Notes under the pieces: model-generated
The model's database searches: none
Told to the model about the DNA's origin: nothing
What the model saw: the letters and a program-made list of their open reading frames with translations, nothing else
Program-made: the position numbers and the translations under genes
In this document: piece by piece, positions 32,940 to 58,640 of the stretch
Layout of the letters: every line of letters begins with the position of its first letter
Position numbering within the stretch: the first letter of the stretch is position 1
Assembly (NCBI RefSeq): GCF_964204865.1
Contig: NC_135252.1
Coordinates: 17,505,383 to 17,569,382 of the forward strand
From: Styela clava
Lineage: Eukaryota > Chordata > Ascidiacea > Stolidobranchia > Styelidae
DNA: 64,000 bases
Reading direction: 5' to 3'

Positions 32940-34336
<1,397 letters not shown>

Positions 34337-39760: not shown

Positions 39761-40573
39761 TTGGCCGAAATGTACGTGGACCGAAAAATCTGTGAGCCCG
39801 GCGATATTTACTGGTGAATATAAATTAGGATGATGTTATTGAAGCATGAAGTTCACGAAAACTTTCCAGACTGTCCATTTTAGGCTGACGGCTTTGGTAG
39901 GGAAAATCAAAACGAATGATTCCATATTGCATTAATTATGGGCATTTAGTTTTAAGAGTTTATTTTCGACGGTCAAATAACGCAAATATACTTATATATA
40001 TATAAAATAAACTTCTAAAATTCTCTGGTTTACAAAATTAATAAAAAACCTATAAATCTTTGAAGATTTCATTGAATTTTGAATATATATTTCAACCGAA
40101 ATGTTAAATAAACAATGCGAGAAATATGAAATCAAGATAACAAGATGAACGCTAACAAATCTACAAATTGTTGCAATTTTACAAGAGAATGTCATATGTA
40201 CAAATGATATCTGTGGCTTAGATATGCTGTTTGCTGTAGACGCCAAAGAGCGGAAGCTTGTTCGATTTAGCCACTGGCACGGTTACTGACGTATACATCA
40301 CGAAGTGAAGCGTCGTTTTCGCGTCTTGTCAGCTTGGATTTCCTGCAGATGACAAATTGTTATCGCGAAAGAGCAGTTAGAAAATGTTGACAGACGTGAC
40401 TTGATCTAGGTATAGAGGTAATTTTTCATTTTGAAATTTAAAAAAAAGTTTACTATAATTACCTAGCCCTGCGAATGATATTTATTAAATAACGAAAAGT
40501 ACAAAGATGAGGATGGTATGTTGAAGCTTGTAAAATAGCATACAGTCAGTTTTTGCAGATTGAAAATAGGATC

Positions 40574-40683
40574 GGTACTCCCGAAGTATGCGCACCAAGA
40601 TGTCGCACAACCTGAACCCCAACTTTGTACACAACCTGGGTTCAGGTTGTGCGCCATCTTGGCGCGCATACTTCAGGAGGTCC
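40574..40683. mobile_element. 110-bp foldback MITE (copy 5), 8-bp TSD
   Basis: Starts GGTACTCCCGAAGTATGCGC and ends CTTCAGGAGGTCC. Exact 8-bp duplications ATAGGATC lie at 40566-40573 and 40684-40691. It sits about 340 bp upstream of the lipoxygenase start codon. Its interior (CTGAACCCC...ACACAACCTGGGTTCAGG) matches copy 1. Confidence 0.9.
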
Positions 40684-41020: not shown

Positions 41021-44000
41021 ATGAACTATTCGCCAAACAAAAGACCTAGGATGGGGCCACAATCTGCCAGATATCAAATAATCGTAACGGTGAGAAACAT
41101 ATTTTGCATTGTAATTTATTACCTCAGTATCCCTTAGTCACCCTTAGATTTTTACGATGATTTAAAATAATAAATCTGCCATTAAAATGGGTATTTAAAT
41201 TCAACTAGTATATATGAGTTGGAATTTATTAGTATATATATTTGAGTGGCTACTTGAGGATTGTCAATGGTGGGTAATATACATAACTAAAATACAAGCA
41301 AGACTGATGGCAGTAGCAAGACTTCAAAAGATTGGGTTTATCCAACTCTTATAACCTGGCGATGCTTATATAGGATTTGTATTTGTTGGACACGAAATGG
41401 AGCTATGGATCGTTTTGTTGTTAAATTGTTGTTGTTAGTATTCTTGTTGCTGCTGTTTTTTTTCTTGACTACTGGACCAATTGCTTTGAAATTTTCAGTG
41501 GATAAAGATTTTTCCCTAGAAGGCTATTACTTTCTTTTATTTCAAATATATCTGCGGGCGCTATGGGATTCATTGCCCACTTTTTCTTTTTATCAATTCA
41601 AATGTAAAATGCTATATATTTTAAAATAAATCACTTTGAAAGTACAAAATCCTGTTTTTTGAATTCTAGACATCAAAGGCGTATGTTGGGGCAGAAGGAA
41701 CTACCAATACCGTTTCAGTGGTTTTAACTGGAGAGAGTGGAAGAAGAACGGAGGAAAAAATATTGAGGGAAGATGGAGATTTGTCATTCAGACGTGGAGA
41801 AACCGATGTTTTTGAAATAAACGCGATGGATGTTGGACTTCCAATTATTGTTAAACTGCGTGAGTGCGATTCTGCTTATACTTGCATTTGTTATTATATG
41901 CAGTAAGATGGTACTTCCGAAGTATGTGAACCAAGATGGCGGACACCGAAACGTAGTATGTGTACCAGGTCAAGGTTAAGCCATAATTTTATTCCAATTT
42001 TCCTTATTTTAGTTCTATTACGAGTTCAGGAACTAGCCAAGTGACTCCCGGGGTATTTATACCTGAAATTATGGCCTAATCCCTGCCTGGTACACATACC
42101 ACATTCCGGTGTCCGCCATCTTGGTTTAAGGTTGCATAAGAGAGGATTACATATCGAAATCCGTATTATTCTAAAAATATATATTTGTGCAAACGTTCTG
42201 ATATTTACTCTGAGTGTTTTGAGAAAAGAAGCGATTGCAATGCATTTGTCGGCTAAAGCGAAGAGATTTTTGTTGTGATTTAAGCTATATTTTTTATATA
42301 TATTGCCGGAATTTGACTATAAAATATTGAAAATGATCCGGGGTTGAAAAGTCAGAGTTCAGGGTAGATACGGGCACATCATTTAATCTGGGATGTACCA
42401 ATTTGAATATATTAAACAACAAAGGAAATTATTCGATACTTCCGATAATAATGAGTTTTCCTGACATTCTGACGACTTGGTAACTGTGGTCCCGTGGCTA
42501 GTCTCAGGTAGAAGGTATAGGTATGGTATTATGAAGCTAAATCGTGCTTTCCGGTCAAAATTCTATGGCACGACATGATTGTTCACAGAGTATATGCATG
42601 ATTTGAATATTTATTCCGTCCAAATTTCTGAATTGGTAAATGTCTAGAATAAACTTTGACCAATCGAGAAGTTTAAACACTCACCGAAGCCCAATAATTT
42701 AGGTCTTCTTCAACATACTGGAAAAGATCCTTGGGCTGTGAGAACCATTGTGGTGAAATACAAAAACGAAGAAGTCACGTTTCCAGTGTATGATTGGATT
42801 GAAGATGAAATTTCAGTCACTTGCGGAGAAGGTGAGAAAACAAAATTTATCATAAAATTATTATTATTACATAATTTCAGTGCAAAATTGTTTTCCGGCG
42901 CTCCAGAGGTGTGTGTACCAATATGGAGGTAAATAATTTTGTTCGCCTACTCTACATCAAATTGTGTGGAGAAACTGAAACTTATGGGGGTATATTCACT
43001 TAGCTAACACAGACAGTCCCCGAACTCGTAATGGAGCGGTGCGGTTCCACGAATAAGCACGGGAGTATGCTCGCCAAGTCAGAAAAGGCTTTCGTGTGCT
43101 GCAAAGCGATACAATAGATTTGATAGCACAATATGACAAAACAACAAGTTCTCATTAGATAAAATAGAAAACAACGAAGCTCTGATTAACGATCGAGCAG
43201 CAGTCATACCAAGAAAGAGATTCAGAAAGCATGGTTGCCGTAGTCATCTGAGAAAACTGGAAATATACTGATAAAAAATTCATAAAATAATTACTCTACC
43301 TGTAATAAATAGTTGAATGCCGTGAGTCTGAAATTCTAAAAAAAAACATTTCAGAAATACCTGTTTGATTCCATTACTATATATATATAGATGATGTTGG
43401 GAACTTTTCTCTCTCTTAGCATTGCTTACGCATAAGATCCGAAACAAAGATGTCTTAGAGATGCGAAAACTTGAAGTCGAAAAAGCGCAGGCTAAAATTC
43501 AATGGTCTTCTCCTCCCGGACCTGAGGACTTAGGTCGAAGAATGCCACGTTTCATGAATGCGAATACAGTTGAAGAAATGCCATTGACATTTCGACCTAC
43601 AGAGAGTTGGATAAGTTCTTTTGCAGAAAACGACATAGAAAATGGTGCAAAGAAAGCTATGGGACTTGCACAAAGTAGGTTCCAATTGCTAGTATTGGGA
43701 TATCCAACATTGTGTCTTTGTATAATACAACATTGCGTTATTATTGGTATGTTATTAATAGGAAAATGACTCAAAATGCACAGAATGTCTACTTGTCTAA
43801 GCTTTCTTGCGATAAATCAGTTAACTATTATTTCCATTGCACATGTAGCATAAATACCAAGTGTCTATAATCTCGTTTCAATATATTTTGTTTATATTTT
43901 TCTGTTAAGGCCAACAGCTTAAATTGGACAGTCTGGAAAGTTTTCACGAACTCTATGCTTCATTTGAAGACGGCAAAGAAAGATCTTCTCATTTGGACAG

Positions 44001-47000
44001 GTGCAGGAATTTAAAACATTTGAGTATTGTTGAATATCTGAAAAAGCATGAGGCATGTGGAATACTTATCGTGTTGAATATCATTTATATATGATTTATA
44101 TTACGCATTTAGAGAAGAAATTAAGAACAATTTCCTTATGGACTTTTTCGGATGAACTATGGTGATCAAACATGGTATTTACCAAAGGAAAATCAGTGAT
44201 TCTTAACCTTTTTTGCTACATTCCCCTCTTTGCTGATTTTGAAACTTTTCATTCCTCCATGGTATGAGTAAAACTCCGCTTCCGTTTGTTCATCAATATT
44301 TAGTGGATGATTAGATACTTGCAACATACTCTCGACATATATACGACTTCGGTACAGTTTCAAATAAGTAAAAGATGTCAGTTATACTACACACAAATAC
44401 AAAGCAAAAATTTCCTCTTTCGAAAAATTGAAAACCTCCCTCAGATATGATTACCGCCGACTGAGTACGTCTAGACTCTAGATAGATTTTATTTTAGATC
44501 AATGTTTGTTTCCCAACCGGGGGTCCATGGCTCCTAATTGGGCCACGGAACAGTTAGAGGGAGGCCACAGGTCCTGAAGGGGGCCGCGATCACGCGATAA
44601 ATAAAAGGTTAAAAACCACTGATTTAAGCATTGGTATTGCTTCTGAAAAACACAAGATGGAAACTTATTACGCTTCCAAACATTAAAATATACTAACTAA
44701 AAAACTACTTCTAATATTCTGCATATAGGTAGTGATTGTTTGGTTCAATACGCCATTTCCATCATTCCCTCGTTTAGATAAAGATTTGTTAATTTATTTG
44801 TTTCTTATTGAAGATGGCAGAGTGATGAGGAGTTTGGACGTCAGCAACTCAATGGAATCACACCAATTTCAATAGAAAGGTTTGTGAACACTTTTTTAGA
44901 ATATTGGAAATACATTCACAATTAAAAATAACAAGCTTCCACCTAATTTTATAACTCGAATTTTGGGCGCCACAATGGCAAGGATTCCGGTTCTTCTCGA
45001 TAGGCGTAGCTTCTTACATAACGTTAGATGTACAGGGCCTTGTTCGCAGCAAATTAAAAGGCTTACGTTTCGTATAAAAAAAAAAAAACTAACCCCGAAT
45101 GTAGATATTTTTGTTTGTATTGCTAACCAAACACTTATGACCAGATAAAACTATATTTTTTATATATGCCCTGACGCGAACAATACTATTTATGATGAGT
45201 TGGAAATCAGCAGGACACCTCGCCCAGATAAAACTGACAGTTTTTCTAATATTTGGTTCTATTCATTTCAATAAAATCCACACTATCGCGATGTAAAATC
45301 AGATTCCTACTTTATCTGTACTTTATTTTTGACGCAGATGCACAAAACTTCCAGAAGTATGTAAAATAACGGACGATGACGTTCGAGAACTGATTGGTGG
45401 ATACTCTCTTCAAGAAGAAATGAAGGTATGAGTGTCTTGAAGATGCTAATAGCCATTGTATTAAATATGATACGTCCGTTTTGGGTTTATTGACTAGTTT
45501 TCAGACGAAAATGACCTTGACGCTGCTTCAACAGCGCAAAAAATTTTCTTTAGTCTTAAACGAAAGCGACGAAGTATAATACAAACATTATCAAATGCTA
45601 AAGCAGTGTATGAAACTTATCATATTTCTCATAATATCAGTAATTAATACGAGATGTTTGATCTATTAATTTCAACATTTTTGGTTTAAATTCGCTTATT
45701 TTGGAAATATTTATATGGATGTTTTATACAAAGGTCCCGCAAATAAAAAAAAACCGCCAACGCTCAAAAAAAAAAAAAAAACTAGTAATTATACAGTTTG
45801 GGTTTGGGTTTAGAATATAGATTCAAATCATTTTTAACTCTAACCTCAACTCAGATTGGATAGTTACTAATTTGTTATTTAAAACCGTGCCGGCGGTGTT
45901 TTTTTCAAATCTCACATTTTCGCATTAGTGACTGGGGCTTTGTACAAAAGATTCCTTCATTTCTCTCTTACTATGCGTAAAAGGTTTATTTAATTGTTCT
46001 TTAGCTAGTGTTATGCACAAGTCGAGCTTCTACTTTTGTACAGTTTAAAATGTTTGCATTAATGGGAATCATAGTAATAATAAAGAACTAGAAATAGAAT
46101 ACCGCAGCAAAATTTCTCCCCAAGAAAGACAAAATTCGTTTCAGAGAAGAAATTTCTCACCGATCGAGAAACGCGGAATTGTGCAGTGATAAGAAGTGAT
46201 AAGGCAGAAGATAAGAATAAAAGCTCAAAAATTAGATGAGATCTATATACTGACACTTGAATAAAATAACAACAACTCAATCTGAATTATTAACAACAAA
46301 ATTCACTTTATAGGATGGAAAAGTTTACATTGGTGATTACAGCGAAATCTTTCACGGTGAAATTCGGAACAAAGACGTTGCTGGTAATCTACTGTACTGT
46401 CCCGATGCAATCTGCCTATATTATGTTAATTCGGAGGACAATTTGGTTCCGATAGCTATCCAGCTTGTACCAAATGATCGTGAAACTATTTTTACCCCAA
46501 AAAGTTCACCCGAGGATTGGATGCTTGCTAAAATGTATATGAAAGTGACGATGGGAAACTTACATGAGGTGCGTTGTTAACACATTCACGTCTAACTGGA
46601 GATTAGAAGAGGATTTTGTATTACTTCATATCTATTTTATGAATTGTGCGTGAACACTGATATGACAAGTCTCCTATTCTTGATTATAATGTGAGCGTGC
46701 ATATTTAGTAGAATTATGTCATGTATGCCGGCGCTTAAGGTATGTGAACCAAGATAGCGGACACCGGGACGTAGTATGTGTACCAGGTTAGATCATAATT
46801 TCAGGAACAAATACTACGGGAGTCACTTGGCTAGTTCCCGAACTCGAAATAGAACCAAAATAAGGAAAATTAGAATAAAGTTATGGCCTAACCCTAACCT
46901 GGTACACAGAATACGTTCCGGTGTCCGCCATCCTGGTTCACATATTTCAGGAGTACCCAATAATATAATCACCAGACACCTAATTTACATTTTACTATAA

Positions 47001-50000
47001 TAATAAATACAATAGTACGATATAAGTTTTTTAACTTCTTTATGGGCTAAATTGACACACTCTCATAAACTCAATAATTGACGTTTTTATCAGTTTCTAA
47101 ACTTATACAAATCGGGATGAGTCAGATCATTTAATATGATCTCTGAGATGTAGAAAATGGTGCAAGCTTGATTTGTTTTCTTTTCTTCTAGTGGTCTTAT
47201 CATTTTCTTATGACGCATAATGTAATGGAGCCGTTTTCAATATCGTTGTTCCGATCTTTTCCACGATCTCATCCTATGTATAAATTATTGCACCCCCATC
47301 TTCAAGTGGTTACAGTGATCAATACCATCGGAAGACCAAACTTGATGGCAAAAGAATCAGCGTCAAATAAGTCAATTGCAATTGGTGAGTTCTTCACTTA
47401 TAATTGAAATAGAAAGGCTAGTTCTTATTTTCCTGATTTTTGAAGGGCATAAGCATATTTAATTTAATATGGTGTAAATGGGGACCAGTGGTTCTCAACC
47501 TTTTTGTTAAATTCTCCTCTTCCTCATTTTAAATCTCGTTTTCTTCCCTACTATATATAAAAAGTACTTTATTTATTCAATCAATGGAGCCTTATCCAAA
47601 GTTATGCTAAAGTCGCACTCCCGTTATTTACAGTTTAAGTAGTTAGTAATACTGGTGATGCTACAGCAAATACACAGTGAAATTTCTCCTCAAGAACTTT
47701 ACGTTTTCGTCGTCGATTTCAAAACAATCCTCATAAAAACTACTAGCAAAGTAAAAGTGTTTCCAGCTATTCTTGAATCGTTTCATTTTGATATAAAAAC
47801 TGTTTGGCCATGATTTGCTTTAAAAACGTCATTCTTGTGGCGCTCCAGAATCGTGTGTACTAATATGGAGGTAACTAATTTTGTTCGCCTACCTTACATC
47901 AAGTTGTGTAAAGGGACTGAAGCCTATGGGCAGAGGGGTATTGGCTCCTAACTTGGCTAACACAGACAGTTCCCGAACTCGTAAAAGAACTAAAATGAGG
48001 AAAATCGGAATAAATTTAAAACCTAACCTTAACCGGTAGTACCATTTTTGTTATATAATTTTCTTTCATTTTATGTTTAAGAGGGAGAGAACATAATAAG
48101 ACAAATTTACAAGAATTTTCATTTTGATGATCTTGTGATTCCAGAAGTTATCAAGAAAAAGGGTAACATGAATTATAGTATTTAATATGTTGCGGAAATT
48201 TTTATTTATCACTTTATATTTTTCAAACAGTGCAATTCAGCAGTGTAAATTTATAGGTAGGAAACCTCTGTTACTTCAAAGATTGAAACCATACCTGTAT
48301 GCTATATAAGAAAATCAACATTGCTATCGCCATTATTGTTCTAATCCCATTCAGCAGATTTACTCCGTATTAACATTCCACTTTGTTTTATAAATGCTAC
48401 AGATATTTATCACCTTTTATTTCACTAGTCTTATGTTTTGTTTTGAATAATGATAAATGATTGATAAATGTTTTAAAATACTTTACAGGATTAGATGACA
48501 AAAAGCTTTTGCCGAAGTTTCACTACCGAGATGACGCTGTTGAATTGTGGGAAATTATTGAAGACTTTGTTGGTGATGTCATAAAGCACTACTACACTTC
48601 TGACAATGTAAGACGTCCATGCTTGCTTGAAGAAATATTTTAAAAGCTATTCATTCCTTTGAAATTACTTACGAATTTCCTGTGATCATATGCAGAGTCA
48701 CACTTTGGTAAGGCTTCTAATTCATTCCCGATATGGTAAGAGAATGTACATGGATGGAAGCCGTGACAGACTATTTCGAATTAGCTCTTTGATTAGCTTT
48801 TTAGTGATGAAAATATTGTTCGCTTTCCGTTATATTTTCTATTTTCATCAGGATATTCAATTAGACGAAGATTTGCAATGGTTTATAAAAGATGTGGCGG
48901 AGAAAGGATGGGCATGGTTTGATGGAAATAAACGAGGAATTCCTGTACCGTTGACATCCATTCAAGAGCTGGTAAGAAGATATTAGTCTGCTGGCTATCA
49001 CATCGTAATATTTGGGGACTAAATGTTCTGCAATAATGCCATGTTCAAGAAATAGTATTACTATTATTTATAAGTGCGTGGTAAATTGTAGGCAATCTCT
49101 TGGCATATTAAAGAAAAATGGTAGAAAACAGAAGAAGATCGTGGTGATTCAAAATGGATCTTGTTTAGAAAGCCGCCGTCACTAATACAAAAATGTGAGA
49201 TTTATCAAAACACCCCCGCCTTGCCAGTACTGCAGATTTCACTCGCCATGTTAGGGTTACGTGGCGCACTGAAAATCAGGCAAGGCTGGACATATCCCTT
49301 TCGTCTACTTGTCTAGGCCAATAAATACCGCACAATCATTAACGGTACAGCATGGCAAATGGATAATATGCTTCTTTTAAAAGGTCCACATTGTAAACGG
49401 ATTTGACAGTAATTTTACAACCAAATCCATTTTCTTTCCTACTTAAAATAAACTCTAGATTGGGTTATACCAGTTTCATTTAGATATTTCTGTACTCATG
49501 CACAACCCACTCCAATATAAGATTTCAAATTTGGTTTAATTAGTTGATGGGATACGCCAGTGGTTGTCTACCTTATTTGCTGAAAACCCCCCTTTGGCCC
49601 ATCATTCTTCTCCCAATATGCATAAAAAATCTTATATTTGTTTTCTTAGCTAGTGTTATACGCAAGGTGCTTCCCCCACGTTTGTACAGTTAAAGTAGTT
49701 TATAAATAAAAACTAATGTAATGATAATAATCTAAAAAATATTAGTAAATTCGCATGAACGTAAAAACGTGGAAATAGTGCTTTTGAAATTTGGGATCAT
49801 TCGTGTCATTGCTCGTAACAGTTCAATTTTTTTTTTCAGATTCGAATCTGTACTTGTGTTATTTACACAAGTTCTGTACAGCATGCCGCCATAAACTTCC
49901 CTCAGTACGAGACTTATAAATATGTACCAAACTCACCATTTGCAATGAGACTGCCACCACACAAGCAAGGAGAGGTATTTAGGATATTTTTTCCTCATTT

Positions 50001-51503
50001 ATTTTTAATTTTTCCAAACTACGTAGATCATTGCAAAGAAAAAACCTTTCAACAGCGGAACTACAAGATTTATGTGTATATTGAGTGACTATACTTACTC
50101 CTATGAAATTGACTGTGTACATTACTTGAATGGCCGTATATGTATATCTAATTGGGTGTATAAACATGACATTGGCTGTGTATGTACATTTCCAAAATGG
50201 CTGTATTTGCATATCAATTGGCTGTATATGCATATGATATTGGCTGCATATGCATATTTAGTAGGCGCTATATATAAATTTAGTTGGCATGACATAAATG
50301 TATATTTTTGTCTGTATATGTATATCACGTTACCAACCCAACTCGAAAAATAAGAATATACCTATTGTCCGCCAATACCATCCATTTTTTTTATCTTGGA
50401 CTAAACGATGGGCCCAGGAATGAGAGCTACTTACAGGATTTGGATATGATTTCACATTTATTCCGAAGGAGAGGAAAACAGATAGCATGGCTCTATGATA
50501 TGGCGAACCATTGCCTATTGTTTAGCTACCCGTTTACGTCGGGTATAAGATTAGTTACCCAGGTATTTGCTGCAGATGCAAGGGCGTGATAAAACTACGC
50601 CAACACGATCACGTCAACGCGCGAATATAGAAGCCAAAACCTATCGAATATATCCAACGTGCTTTCAACATTTTTTATTCAATCATTCATCATCAATATC
50701 ACATTTGATTCAGTAGATTTCATTTGATGCCCCTATTTAAAATCTATGCTCAATTGGTAAGGTTTCTCAAAATGTAAAATCGCGTCATATTTTATTTTAA
50801 TTTACATCTTTTCAGGCTACGATGCAAAGAATATTGGATTCTCTCCCTAACTTGTTTATTTCGTGCTTATCCATATCAGTGGCCAGTGGTTTGTCGCAAT
50901 ATCACGACGAAATAGTAAGTGAAAAGTCATTGGTATTCACAAAACAATATTTAATTAATGATTTTCAGTGGTTAAACATCGTTGTTATCGCTAGAAGGCT
51001 ATTCCTTTTAAATCAATAATTTTTATGGGCATTTGGGGATTCGTTTTCAACTTTGAAGTTTTGTGTGATGATTTCAACAAAATTAAAAACTATGCACTTC
51101 ATGACGGTTTCGCGATAGTATTTCAGCAATGTCATAGTTTGCAAAGTCGGGAGTATTGGATAAAGTAGACTACAGGTACCGCTCCTGTAAGAGATTTGAT
51201 ACCGGTAGACTACTCCTTATTTTTTTGCCCTTCATCTCCATATGTGTGAGCACTGTTTGTGTTTTTTTGTCCTTGTGTTTATCGTGTGTTTGTTTTTTCA
51301 TCGCAAATTTTTCATCATTTCAGGTTTTACTTGGAAACTATCCAATCAAGCTTTTCACAGAGAAGGAAGTTCTGAAAAGCATTGAAAAATTTAAGAAAAA
51401 ACTGGACAAACATGATGAAAGAATTCGTAAGAGAAACGACAAACTCGAATTCCCATACGTTCATCTTCTGACGGAAAAAATACCTAATAGCATCGTTATA
51501 TGA
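41021..51503 (+). CDS. animal lipoxygenase (arachidonate lipoxygenase family), complete
   Basis: Fifteen exons with matching phases: 41021-41089, 41670-41859, 42703-42831, 43420-43674, 43910-44000, 44814-44879, 45338-45425, 46314-46568, 47192-47384, 48082-48162, 48489-48607, 48852-48971, 49840-49974, 50816-50914, 51324-51503. The product is 689 residues, the normal animal length. An N-terminal PLAT/LH2 beta-barrel (residues ~18-125: YQIIVT, FRRGETDVFEI) is followed by the catalytic domain with the EEFGRQQLNG signature (250-259). All five non-haem iron ligands are visible: His385 and His390 (HFLMTH), His567 and Asn571 (QHAAIN), and the C-terminal Ile689 (PNSIVI). These enzymes add dioxygen to arachidonate-type fatty acids. 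The stereocontrol ('Coffa') site, 43 residues after the first His, is Gly428 (INTIGR), which predicts an R-type product. Exons 1-2 encode the PLAT start. Introns are rich in MITEs. Confidence 0.95.
41911..42132. mobile_element. ~220-bp foldback-ended MITE in LOX intron 2 (family 2)
   Basis: Starts GGTACTTCCGAAGTATGTGAACCAAGATGGCGGACACC-like and ends with the inverted GGTGTCCGCCATCTTGGTT. The interior carries CCTTATTTTAGTTCTATT and GAACTAGCCAAGTGACTCCC. The copy at 46730 has the same interior in the opposite orientation. The termini resemble those of the 110-bp family (TCCTGAAGTATG, ACCAAGATGGCG), so the two families are related. The right end is eroded and no clear target duplication is visible. 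Confidence 0.75.
42897..43060. mobile_element. truncated MITE in LOX intron 3 (family 3)
   Basis: Starts GGCGCTCCAGAGGTGTGTG and contains CCAATATGGAGGTAA, TAATTTTGTTCGCCTAC and CCCCGAACTCG. It matches the more complete copy at 47839. The right part is missing or diverged. Confidence 0.65.
44194..44621. mobile_element. hAT-like remnant in LOX intron 5
   Basis: Left end CAGTGATTCTTAACCTTTTT; complement of the right end CAGTGGTTTTTAACCTTTTA. A nested CCCAACCGGGGGTCCATGG near 44513 looks like the end of another hAT-type element. Related left ends are at 47486 (CAGTGGTTCTCAACC) and 49558 (CAGTGGTTGTCTACC). The last shares TAGCTAGTGTTATACGCAAG-type sequence with about 46000-46030. Confidence 0.6.
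46730..46960. mobile_element. ~230-bp MITE in LOX intron 8 (family 2, inverted interior)
   Basis: Ends carry GGTATGTGAACCAAGATAGC and its inverted partner GTCCGCCATCCTGGTTCAC, finishing CATATTTCAGGAGTACC. The interior (GAGTCACTTGGCTAGTTCCC, AACCAAAATAAGGAAAAT) is the reverse complement of the copy in intron 2. The frame at 46776-47000 is contained in it and is not a gene. Confidence 0.75.
47486..47670. mobile_element. hAT-like left-end remnant in LOX intron 9
   Basis: CAGTGGTTCTCAACCTTTTT followed by a body similar to 44194 and 49558 (TCTCCTCTTCCTC, ACTATATAT, TACAGTTTAAGTAGTT). The right end was not located, so the boundary is approximate. Confidence 0.45.
47839..48043. mobile_element. 205-bp MITE in LOX intron 9 (family 3)
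   Basis: Starts GGCGCTCCAGAATCGTGTG and ends CTTAACCGGTAGTACC. Flanks ATTCTTGT (47831-47838) and ATTTTTGT (48044-48051) differ at one base, an 8-bp target duplication. The interior contains GACAGTTCCCGAACTCGTAA and AAAATGAGGAAAATCGGAAT, also present in family 2, so the families share ancestry. Confidence 0.75.
49558..49720. mobile_element. hAT-like left-end remnant in LOX intron 12
   Basis: CAGTGGTTGTCTACCTTATT, then CCCCCCTTTGGCCC and TTAGCTAGTGTTATACGCAA...TTTGTACAGTTAAAGTAGTT. The later block also occurs near 46005-46050 in intron 7. Right end not located. Confidence 0.45.
50090..50335. repeat. degenerate minisatellite in LOX intron 13
   Basis: About eight to ten units of roughly 20-28 bp built on (A)ATTGGCTGTATATGCATAT, with many TATG/CATA steps, so long frames are open on both strands (50072-50353 plus, 50122-50328 and 49979-50233 minus). 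Those frames are consequences of the repeat. Unit boundaries are approximate. Confidence 0.75.
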
Positions 51504-52990: not shown

Positions 52991-55011
52991 ATACTTTAAA
53001 AAAACTTTTATTGGGGCTTCTGGAATCACTTTGCAGACCATTTTGTAAATAGAAGAACTTTTATGTCAATGTAAAAAATCTTCTGTGTCAATGTTCGTTT
53101 GACTACGAGAGGAATCATTTTGAAGTTATAAAATAAATATCTTTAAAGTATCAATTTATTGTATTAATGTATGGCAGGGTTCATTACATATTTTTTCATA
53201 TTATGAAAAAAGTAATATGTCGTAAATGAAACGTTCACTACTTATATTATCTACTAAAACACATAATCCTACACGTAATCTGTTGATGCTTCGTTTCTGT
53301 TTCATGGAGGTGTTATTAAAATGGTAGATATGTTAAATATTGTACTGTAGAATAATAGAATAGCCCTGCAACCTTTATCAAAGGAGGGCAAAAATACAGA
53401 TCACTGGGTGAGGCCGCGGTCCGCACCGTCATTTAAGATATAGCATTTATATTAGTTGTATACACAAAACTTTTTTTTTGTCATTGATCTCACGGCATTG
53501 TTATGGGTCTGTCTATGCGGAAATGGCGAGTTGTAATTGCTATTCAAATTTATTGTCACAGCGACTTTAAACGAATTCAGTGAGACCTACGTTTTTATAA
53601 CATTGTGTATTTTGCAACAGAATTTTGCTTGTTAGTTTTGCTAATATAGCAGTGGCACGCAGGTATTGGTAGAGGCTTTGCTACGCAAGAGGATTGGTAT
53701 TGCTCCCACATGCCAAAATAACTAAACTTAAAACTGGTTTCTCGGGCACACTATTCAAAATTGGCCATATTTCCGCGGGCCGCACAATTTTTCCATGAGC
53801 CGCAGTTTGCGCCCCGTATCTGGCCCTAACCCTAACCCCTAGAAAAAACGATTATAAGTGAAACAAGAGAACAATGCTCAAATATATGGACATAACAGCC
53901 AAAACTAAGCAGTACGGTATGCAATCTGTCGCAGCAGACTATAGGTACCACATCTTTGAAGACTCCACGTGACCACCAGATATCATTTTACGCGAAAGCA
54001 GAACCGTCACAAGGTGCGCAATTTTTAATATTGATGTCGTCATCACACACACAAAAACGAAGGCCAAAATGAAAAGTAGCACAGGTATGAAATCTGGCTT
54101 GACTACCGGTCCAGCAGTGTTTACGACTAACGGATTGCGATGCGCAATTTTTGGTGGCCCATACAGCCCGCAGAAATTTTTGAAATGAATCAAAGTAATA
54201 CCTTTCTAGCAAAATATAGAATCTTTAATCGCTGAAAATTCCAAAGAAATTAGTTCAGTAATAAATGAGAGAAGGGATTTTTTTCATAACGATATAAAAA
54301 CATAACAATGCAACAGTACGACTTAACCGGAATACCGGTAGGTGCTCGCCACTAATATAGTCTAGTAATAATTAGTTCAGAAGATCTCGTGTGCTGCAAA
54401 GACACACAAATAGGTTCGAAGTTCACGATGCAAACGAAAGACTTTATTAAAATAGTGTAAAATCCACGATTAAAGCAGATAGAATGGAATAGCGACAAAA
54501 TACGGTCCTCACTCAGCGACAGCAAAAGCAAAGGGAGCGAACGCTGCGAACTGCAGCCAGTTCATATATGCAGTGGTGGTTGGAGTCGAGTAACAGGATC
54601 TAACTATAGGCCGAATTATAGATCAGACTCCACACACCAATGCATATGCAACACTAGACAAGAAATATAGATAAAATATAAAACAATAAAAAATAGGACA
54701 ATCCAGTCCCGCCACAACAATAATAACAAAACGATTCATATGTACACTTCCTGTCTAAAATCAGACTTTCATGATAAACATGAAACATCAAAATAACTAT
54801 GGAACAATTAGATACAGCTGGATAGTCGATTACTCATTTATGAAATGTCAATATTTGACAATGCGACCCTTCATTTTATACGCCGTTTTGCTCTGCTGCA
54901 CTTAGCTGCAGATTACTAAGTTCAGTCGGCGTCTGACTGGAACTGATTACGTATACGTTATTTGTCGAAAGACTCCTGTGCGCTGCAATCGAAAACCTTT
55001 TGCAGTTAAAT
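52991..55011. other. spacer between methyltransferase units 1 and 2
   Basis: Holds a decayed hAT-like element (about 53365-53840), matching the intact one at 55930, followed by a copy of the dispersed repeat (53850-54300), a solo LTR (54309-54716) and about 170 bp directly upstream of unit 2. That last part is also found upstream of unit 3 (ACAATGCGACCCTT, TTTATACGCCGTTTTGCTC). Minus-strand frames at 53939-54212 recur at 56518-56845 because the DNA is duplicated; they have no other support. Confidence 0.7.
54309..54716 (-). mobile_element. solo LTR of a Ty3/gypsy-like retrotransposon
   Basis: On the minus strand it reads TGTGGCGGGACTGGATTG ... CTGTTGCA, i.e. TG...CA ends, with an internal AATAAAG signal (complement near 54440). 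Identical 4-bp flanks ACAA lie at 54305-54308 and 54717-54720. The paralogous position in unit 3 (near 57085: CATAACAATAATAACAAAAC) is uninterrupted, which proves the insertion boundaries. No internal retrotransposon coding region or second LTR is present, so it is a solo LTR; the gypsy label rests on TSD size and terminal sequence. Confidence 0.85.
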
Positions 55012-55776
55012 ATGTTGAAACTTCTATCAATTCCATTTGTCAAAGAGAATATGAAAAGTCAGCTTAAGAAACCAGAGAAGGGATTTGGCGGTTTCTTTAC
55101 GAAAAAATATCTCTTGAAAAATAATAAATCGCTTGAAGAAGTAACCACTCGAGCAATAAAACCAAATGCTGATGAAAATATACTTGAAATTGGATTCGGC
55201 CTTGGTAAGTGGAAAGCTTGGAAATTATTACAAAATTATGCACTTATGCTAAACAAGAATTGCTTATTCATTGTCTTCTTCACAGGAGACGGGCTGCAGT
55301 ATGTTTTACAAAACGCTTCAAAGAATGGGAATGGTTTGCTGTATGGGGTCGATCATTCAGAAGCCATATGCAAATGGGCGCAAAACCTGATGTATAAAGA
55401 CATAGCGAATGGTAAGCTCATAATCCTGAATGAAGATGTTGCAAAAATGTCGATTACAAATGAAACGATAAACAAAGTGTTCCACGTTCATTGCAGTCAT
55501 TTCTGGCCGGAAATGGATGTTGCATTGAACGAAATAAAACGAGTCTTAAAACCCGGTGGTTTGGTTGTGTCTGGAGCGGACCTAACTCTAAAGAAATGGG
55601 GAGTTGAAAAAGGGCTAATAGACGAATGGATGTATGATTCAACAGGGTACACTGACGCTCTACAGAGGACTGGATTCGTGAACATAAATGAAGAGGACAT
55701 CTTCGATCCTGGATTGGAGCATGATTTTCGACTCATTTTTGCCACAAAACCTGATGATAAAATCACGAAACAGTAA
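55012..55776 (+). CDS. class I SAM-dependent methyltransferase (unit 2)
   Basis: Two exons, 55012-55204 and 55286-55776, give 227 residues. The start is the ATG aligned with that of the sister gene (MLKLLSIPFVKEN). SAM-binding motif I is ILEIGFGLGDG (57-67), the ribose-binding acid is Asp87 (YGVDHS), motif II is NEDVAKMS (113-120), then FHVHCSHFW and VLKPGGLVV (151-159), the usual Methyltransf_11 order. The substrate is unknown. Motif I resembles small bacterial methyltransferases of the 'EIGFGPG' type. The 81-bp intron splits the glycine loop, is a multiple of three and contains no stop, so unspliced RNA would still encode a longer frame with a disrupted loop. Sister gene at 57359 is about 85% identical by eye. 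Confidence 0.87.
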   Translation: MLKLLSIPFVKENMKSQLKKPEKGFGGFFTKKYLLKNNKSLEEVTTRAIKPNADENILEIGFGLGKWKAWKLLQNYALMLNKNCLFIVFFTGDGLQYVLQNASKNGNGLLYGVDHSEAICKWAQNLMYKDIANGKLIILNEDVAKMSITNETINKVFHVHCSHFWPEMDVALNEIKRVLKPGGLVVSGADLTLKKWGVEKGLIDEWMYDSTGYTDALQRTGFVNINEEDIFDPGLEHDFRLIFATKPDDKITKQ

Positions 55777-57358: not shown

Positions 57359-58640
57359 ATGTTGAAACTTCTATCAATTCCTTTTGTAAAAGAGAATATA
57401 AAAAGTCAGCTTAAGAAACCAGATAAGGGATTGGGCGGTTTCTTTACGAAATACCTCTTAAAAAATAATGAATCGCTTGAAGAAGTAACTGCCCGGGCAA
57501 TAAAACCAAATCCTGATGAAAATGTACTTGAAATAGGATTCGGCCGGGGTAAGTGGAGTTTAATATTTTACTGAAGTCTTCTGACCAAAACGTTTTTGGT
57601 CAATTTTATCATTTCAATATGCTGCTCACGTTTTGTTGATATTCAAGCCCAAACATTTTTTGCAGGTAAAAATGTAGCGAGAAATAACTTCACTAAAAAT
57701 AGAAAAAAAGGTTGCGATTTTCTACGAAATTTCTGCAAGTGCTAATCAAGAATTGCTGTGTGCTTATTCATGGGCGTAGCCATGGATACCTGAGAGGCCA
57801 TGGTTCCTAAAAAATTTGAAACAGTCTTGCATTTGTAGTGAGGCATACATTTTTACGTCTTTTACGACACCCTTGTGCTCTAATCTTGAACAATTTACTG
57901 AAAACTGGGCATTTCCTGGCTAGCTATCAATAATCCTTTCACTGGAATAAACCAATCGAGATAGATGAAAAATGCGTGCAAACTTACCTTGGATAACTCC
58001 GACAGCGAAGTACGTTGTAGAGAGATTTATTAAGATATCAGTGTATGCTTTTAACTGGCATTGTGATGTTATAAATTTTTTTGCCATTTTTACAGTTTTA
58101 GGATGGCTACGCTGTTATGCTTATTCATCGTCTTTTTCTACAGGAGACGGGCTGCATTATGTCTTACAAAACACTTTAAAAAATGGGAATGGTTTTCTGT
58201 ATGGGGTCGATCATTCGAAAGCTACTTGCAAATGGGCGCAGAATCTGATGTATAAAGATGTAGCAAATGGTAAGCTCATAATCCTAAATGAAGATGTTGC
58301 GAAAATGTCGATTGCAGATGGAACGATAAACAAAGTGTTTCACGTTCATTGCTGTCATTTCTGGCCGGAAATGGATAATGCACTAAGTGAGATAAAACGA
58401 GTCATGAAACCCGGTGGTTTGGTTGTCTCTGGAGCTAATCTCACTTTAAAGAAATGGGGAGTTGAAATTGGGCTAACAGAAGAGTGGATGCATGATTCAA
58501 CAAGGTACACTGACGCTCAACAGAGAACTGGATTCTTGAACATACATGAAGAGATCACCCACGATTCTGTATTGGAGCATGATCTCCGACTCATTTTTGC
58601 CACAAAACCTGATAACCACATCTCGAAATTGAAAATATAG
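57359..58640 (+). CDS. class I SAM-dependent methyltransferase (unit 3)
   Basis: Two exons, 57359-57548 and 58144-58640, give 228 residues. Same architecture as the unit 2 gene: VLEIGFGRGDGLHYV for motif I, YGVDHS, NEDVAKMSI, FHVHCCHFWPEM and VMKPGGLVV. It has one residue fewer in the FTKYLL segment and a longer C-terminus (DNHISKLKI). The intron is at the identical phase-1 position inside the glycine loop but is 595 bp long, against 81 bp in unit 2. The stop overlaps the start of a 3' region with AATAAA only two bases downstream. Frames starting at 57972 include intron sequence. The substrate cannot be told from the sequence. Confidence 0.87.

Follow-up and report, generated by a model that had tools for sequence, protein, structure and literature searches.

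Whether a lipoxygenase of the ascidian Styela clava forms R- or S-hydroperoxides is the question raised by a glycine codon in a 64,000-nucleotide stretch of contig NC_135252.1, hereafter the window. Under the Coffa/Brash rule, as given in passages of two reviews, alanine at the switch position goes with S products and glycine with R products, with a few exceptions (PMC13059375, PMC11582214). Judged from its sequence, the gene probably encodes an intact animal lipoxygenase, with PLAT and iron domains, of the same kind as coral 8R-LOX, 11R-LOX, and vertebrate 5-LOX, and with an R-type switch and a mainly R product, a reading that we favor with some reserve. The R-type switch is a state already known in coral enzymes, and the Styela enzyme is a further member of the family. 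The weights that we assign to an R product, to an S or mixed product, and to the lack of ordinary dioxygenase activity are matters of judgement and were not computed.

Structure of the lipoxygenase gene

The gene lies complete in the window, on the forward strand at positions 41021 to 51503, where the chaining of splice sites by phase, together with homology, gave 15 exons encoding 689 residues, the protein length proposed in an earlier note on this DNA; it runs from an ATG at 41021 to a TGA ending at 51503, and all 14 introns have GT-AG boundaries (Table 1). Pfam placed a PLAT domain at residues 18 to 121 (E = 1.6e-12) and a lipoxygenase domain at residues 227 to 671 (E = 2e-64), an order that is the layout of animal lipoxygenases. 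The best match of this model among PDB sequences is a single stretch over residues 32 to 687 (E = 3.8e-110). Two other models were discarded: one of 686 residues that used a weak donor at 44072 and reached only E = 1.4e-94 in its best PDB match, in three stretches, and one of 662 residues that lacked exon 10 (best PDB match, E = 7.5e-101, in two stretches). Exon 10 was recognized because the 662-residue model, set beside the coral protein, was short by a block of about 30 residues. An NCBIfam search with this shorter model assigned no family, and when it was used as a tblastn query against the window (E ≤ 1), every one of its 14 exons mapped to a single place, with no second lipoxygenase copy; one further weak stretch was returned on the minus strand at 39840 to 39896 (E = 0.014).

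Table 1. Exons of the Styela clava lipoxygenase (LOX) gene and the switch codon, in window coordinates
Feature	Position	Strand	Basis or content
LOX exon 1	41021..41089	+	Start codon, residues 1-23; phase, GT donor; PLAT match starts at residue 18
LOX exon 2 (PLAT)	41670..41859	+	Splice chaining, Pfam
LOX exon 3 (PLAT)	42703..42831	+	Splice chaining, Pfam
LOX exon 4	43420..43674	+	Splice chaining
LOX exon 5	43910..44000	+	Donor CAG/gtgcag; exon 5/6 junction DRWQSD opposite coral DRWHED
LOX exon 6	44814..44879	+	Splice chaining
LOX exon 7	45338..45425	+	Splice chaining
LOX exon 8	46314..46568	+	Splice chaining
LOX exon 9	47192..47384	+	Iron ligands His385, His390; Gly428; translation, PDB match
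Gly428 codon GGA, Coffa position	47330..47332	+	Translation, alignment
LOX exon 10	48082..48162	+	Encodes EGENIIRQIYKNFHFDDLVIPEVIKKK; coral GGGGH not retained
LOX exon 11	48489..48607	+	Splice chaining
LOX exon 12	48852..48971	+	Splice chaining
LOX exon 13	49840..49974	+	Iron ligands His567, Asn571; pocket Phe586
LOX exon 14	50816..50914	+	Pocket Ser616, Gly622, Leu623
LOX exon 15	51324..51503	+	Ile689 at the C terminus, presumably the fifth iron ligand; TGA stop

Iron ligands and the switch position

Exon 9 translates as WSYHFLMTHNVMEPFSISLFRSFPRSHPMYKLLHPHLQVVTVINTIGRPNLMAKESASNKSIAI, with WSYHFLMTH, INTIGRPNL, and IAI as its successive landmarks. The earlier note had placed both histidine ligands in HFLMTH and a glycine 43 residues past the first of them; our model bears this out, with the same residue numbers, the same spacing, and GGA at the codon indicated. 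Exon 9 alone matched 47 distinct PDB sequences at E ≤ 0.001, so the likeness reflects homology and not chance; the residue in the Coffa column was read from the alignment in 5 of these 47, the other 42 being placed by coordinates only or not judged. Glycine occupies the column in four of the five displayed alignments (IDTIGR in three coral AOS-LOX sequences and INTLGR in 11R-LOX), and alanine occupies it in the remaining one, 8qdr (INALAR). By the start and end coordinates of matches of equal length, the counterparts of Gly428 are residue 542 in soybean LOX-1, residue 403 in the 15-LOX chain 1lox (inferred offset, 1), and residue 428 in the 5-LOX chain 3o8y (inferred offset, 18, giving 410). 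Residue 410 of 5-LOX, the position equivalent to Gly428, is alanine, as the earlier note states. The switch residues named in a section of PMC13059375 are Ala542 in soybean LOX-1 and Ala404 in 15S-LOX1. Alignment with coral 8R-LOX, one of the comparisons that the earlier note had proposed, sets Gly428 opposite Gly427 of that enzyme. The glycines of coral AOS-LOX and 11R-LOX, the coordinate match to soybean residue 542, and the pairing with 8R-LOX Gly427 therefore show that the column was assigned correctly, and Gly428 is, as the alignments place it, in the Coffa column, where the alanine of the vertebrate 5-LOX type is not found. The GGA codon is one base from GCA (alanine) and is read here from one sequence.

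The alignment to 8R-LOX also retains the iron ligands His385, His390, His567, and Asn571; Ile689, the final residue, lies outside the span of that alignment and is taken as the fifth ligand. Leu432, four residues past Gly428, corresponds to 8R-LOX Leu431 and supplies the invariant leucine of the R-type rule, and the residue before Gly428 is Ile427. In an enzyme of this construction, hydrogen abstraction by the iron would take place at a bis-allylic carbon of a polyunsaturated fatty acid; with no methyl group at residue 428 and with Leu432 as a shield, O2 could have access to that end of the pentadienyl radical from which mainly the R-hydroperoxide arises.

Relationship to characterized lipoxygenases

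The whole protein matched 54 distinct PDB sequences, the ranking being led by five coral AOS-LOX (8R-LOX) sequences, followed by 11R-LOX and 5-LOX. The best match (E = 3.8e-110, 372.3 bits) is the lipoxygenase domain of 3fg1, 2fnq, and 3dy5, which are labelled allene oxide synthase-lipoxygenase protein and which we take to be 8R-LOX; 192 of 551 aligned residues are identical over residues 130 to 687, and the likeness includes the TIGR motif, the His/His/His/Asn ligands, and the leucine four residues past the glycine. With exon 9 as the sole query, 11R-LOX (3vf1) came first (E = 1.4e-10), but for the whole protein it ranks below the coral enzyme (343.4 bits), and its INTLGR has leucine ahead of the glycine where the INTIGR of Styela has isoleucine; arachidonate 5-LOX (3o8y) matched residues 15 to 689 (E = 1.1e-98). 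Pfam detected no allene oxide synthase part in the 689-residue protein or in the 10 scanned open reading frames among the 27 of at least 100 residues in the window. A contig scan directed at the bacterial base rate of glycine gave 118 pattern matches and one relative, a lipoxygenase from a Saprospiraceae MAG (L001:3001-4431) that is 32% identical and has glycine in the Coffa column (NNEAGR), one sequence that amounts to no base rate. Among the titles and abstract openings of the matches listed in a literature search that most subscription journals fall outside, there was no expressed or purified tunicate lipoxygenase. A 1999 paper reportedly deals with Ciona eicosanoids. Two Ciona proteins with a lipoxygenase domain appear in the portion of a proteome table available to us (PMC13225635). 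Passages of PMC7018956, PMC2365766, PMC7349721, and PMC8124189 contained nothing to the point.

Exceptions to the rule and the residue ahead of the glycine

The part of the earlier note that equated Gly428 with the R-type state has held, as has its column assignment, but the chirality that it drew from them depends on a rule with exceptions among fish lipoxygenases and in a Myxococcus fulvus mutant. Mutagenesis elsewhere has gone both ways: in the sections available to us, Ala300Gly raised the 9R product of Cyanothece LOX2 (PMC5437038), M. fulvus LOX1 with Ala410Gly remained S (PMC6612559), and a number of mammalian ALOX15 enzymes were little affected by exchanges (PMC10531496). The Coffa glycine of the Styela enzyme is shared by zebrafish LOX1 and by ALOX15 orthologues of bony fish, which yet, according to the same incomplete text, form mainly 12S-HETE: zebrafish LOX1 almost exclusively so, and the enzymes of N. 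furzeri, P. nyererei, and S. formosus with a minor 8R part (PMC10531496); an extract of PMC9787790 deals with the same fish enzymes prior to chiral analysis. It is accordingly possible, against the odds as we see them, that the rule is broken in Styela as in bony fish, with Gly428 in the Coffa column and a product that is mainly S or a mixture of S and R, a prospect for which the exceptions stated in the reviews (excerpts of PMC13059375 and PMC11582214) and a substrate pocket largely unlike that of 8R-LOX also speak.

The residue ahead of the glycine argues against such rule-breaking. The fish enzymes have arginine there (the RG motif). With Arg409Ile, the 8R-HETE of the N. furzeri enzyme rose from 15% to 40%, the 8R share of the P. 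nyererei enzyme became twice what it had been in a 1:4 mixture, and the S. formosus enzyme made a mixture of nearly 1:1 (PMC10531496, section 2.8). Styela has Ile427 in place of that arginine, as does coral 8R-LOX, and this agreement with both the coral enzyme and the R-shifted fish mutants raises the odds of R; Ile427 is, besides Gly428, the best reason to expect R chemistry. In the fish enzymes, however, isoleucine ahead of the glycine was not enough for a clear R majority, about half or more of the product of the Arg409Ile mutants being 12S. The Styela enzyme provides a natural experiment on whether isoleucine or arginine ahead of the Coffa glycine decides between R and S. Should its products prove to be R, the map of R and S chemistry among animal lipoxygenases would gain one more point; if not, the enzyme is a routine member of its family.

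The substrate pocket

We compared 17 residues that line or clamp the 8R-LOX pocket, taken from a portion of PMC10968607, all 17 letters of which fit the chain at the offset used. Six are kept (8R-LOX numbering: His384, His389, Gly427, Leu431, Ser441, and Leu627), and 11 are changed (Tyr178 to Phe197, Arg182 to Asp201, Gln380 to Glu381, Leu385 to Phe386, Val438 to Ser439, Leu444 to Ile445, Ala589 to Phe586, Ala620 to Ser616, Thr623 to Val619, Val624 to Ala620, and Ile626 to Gly622). Four of the six residues that the same portion of PMC10968607 treats as strategic (His384, His389, Leu385, Leu431, Leu627, and Ile626) are retained and two are changed. The coral-type pocket end (Ala589) and the carboxyl-side Arg182 are replaced by Phe586 and Asp201, the alignment being weak around Arg182, and the coral GGGGH stretch soon after the Coffa helix is represented in exon 10 by EGE and a three-residue gap. 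With 11 of 17 pocket residues different, neither the oxygenated carbon nor even the substrate can be predicted by transfer from 8R-LOX.

A phenylalanine adjoining the first histidine, Phe586 for Ala589, Gly622 for Ile626, and the loss of GGGGH are features that might also be expected if fatty acid dioxygenation were not the main activity of the protein, be it a hydroperoxide isomerase or a lipoxygenase of weak or no activity; the switch residue would then have little meaning. We consider this very unlikely, the iron ligands being kept and the whole frame intact. A more far-reaching version of the R-type reading, which we think unlikely, is that an invertebrate chordate has retained an R-lipoxygenase resembling that of corals, in which the switch is Ile-Gly-Arg and the substrate pocket has been remodeled. 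R specificity would then be old in animals, the S specificity of most vertebrate enzymes would be derived, and the regiochemistry could be one that is undescribed.

Surroundings of the gene

An actin gene, presumably of the muscle type and ascidian-like, lies upstream at 32940 to 34336; the open reading frames at 32940 to 33470 and 33525 to 33944 match Pfam Actin, and a third, extending to 34336, resembles its end by eye. Downstream, two neighbors resembling Methyltransf_11 occupy open reading frames on the forward strand (54937 to 55776 and 57969 to 58640) and are 80% identical over 165 residues. A tRNA search of the window found none. Fold-back repeats occur ahead of the lipoxygenase gene at 40578 to 40679 (pair I6), in intron 2 at 41929 to 42126 (I3), and in intron 8 at 46741 to 46944 (I4), and inverted arms of 170 nucleotides at 41910 to 42079 and 46788 to 46957 are 88% complementary. 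The fold-back repeats resemble short mobile elements of the inverted-repeat type.
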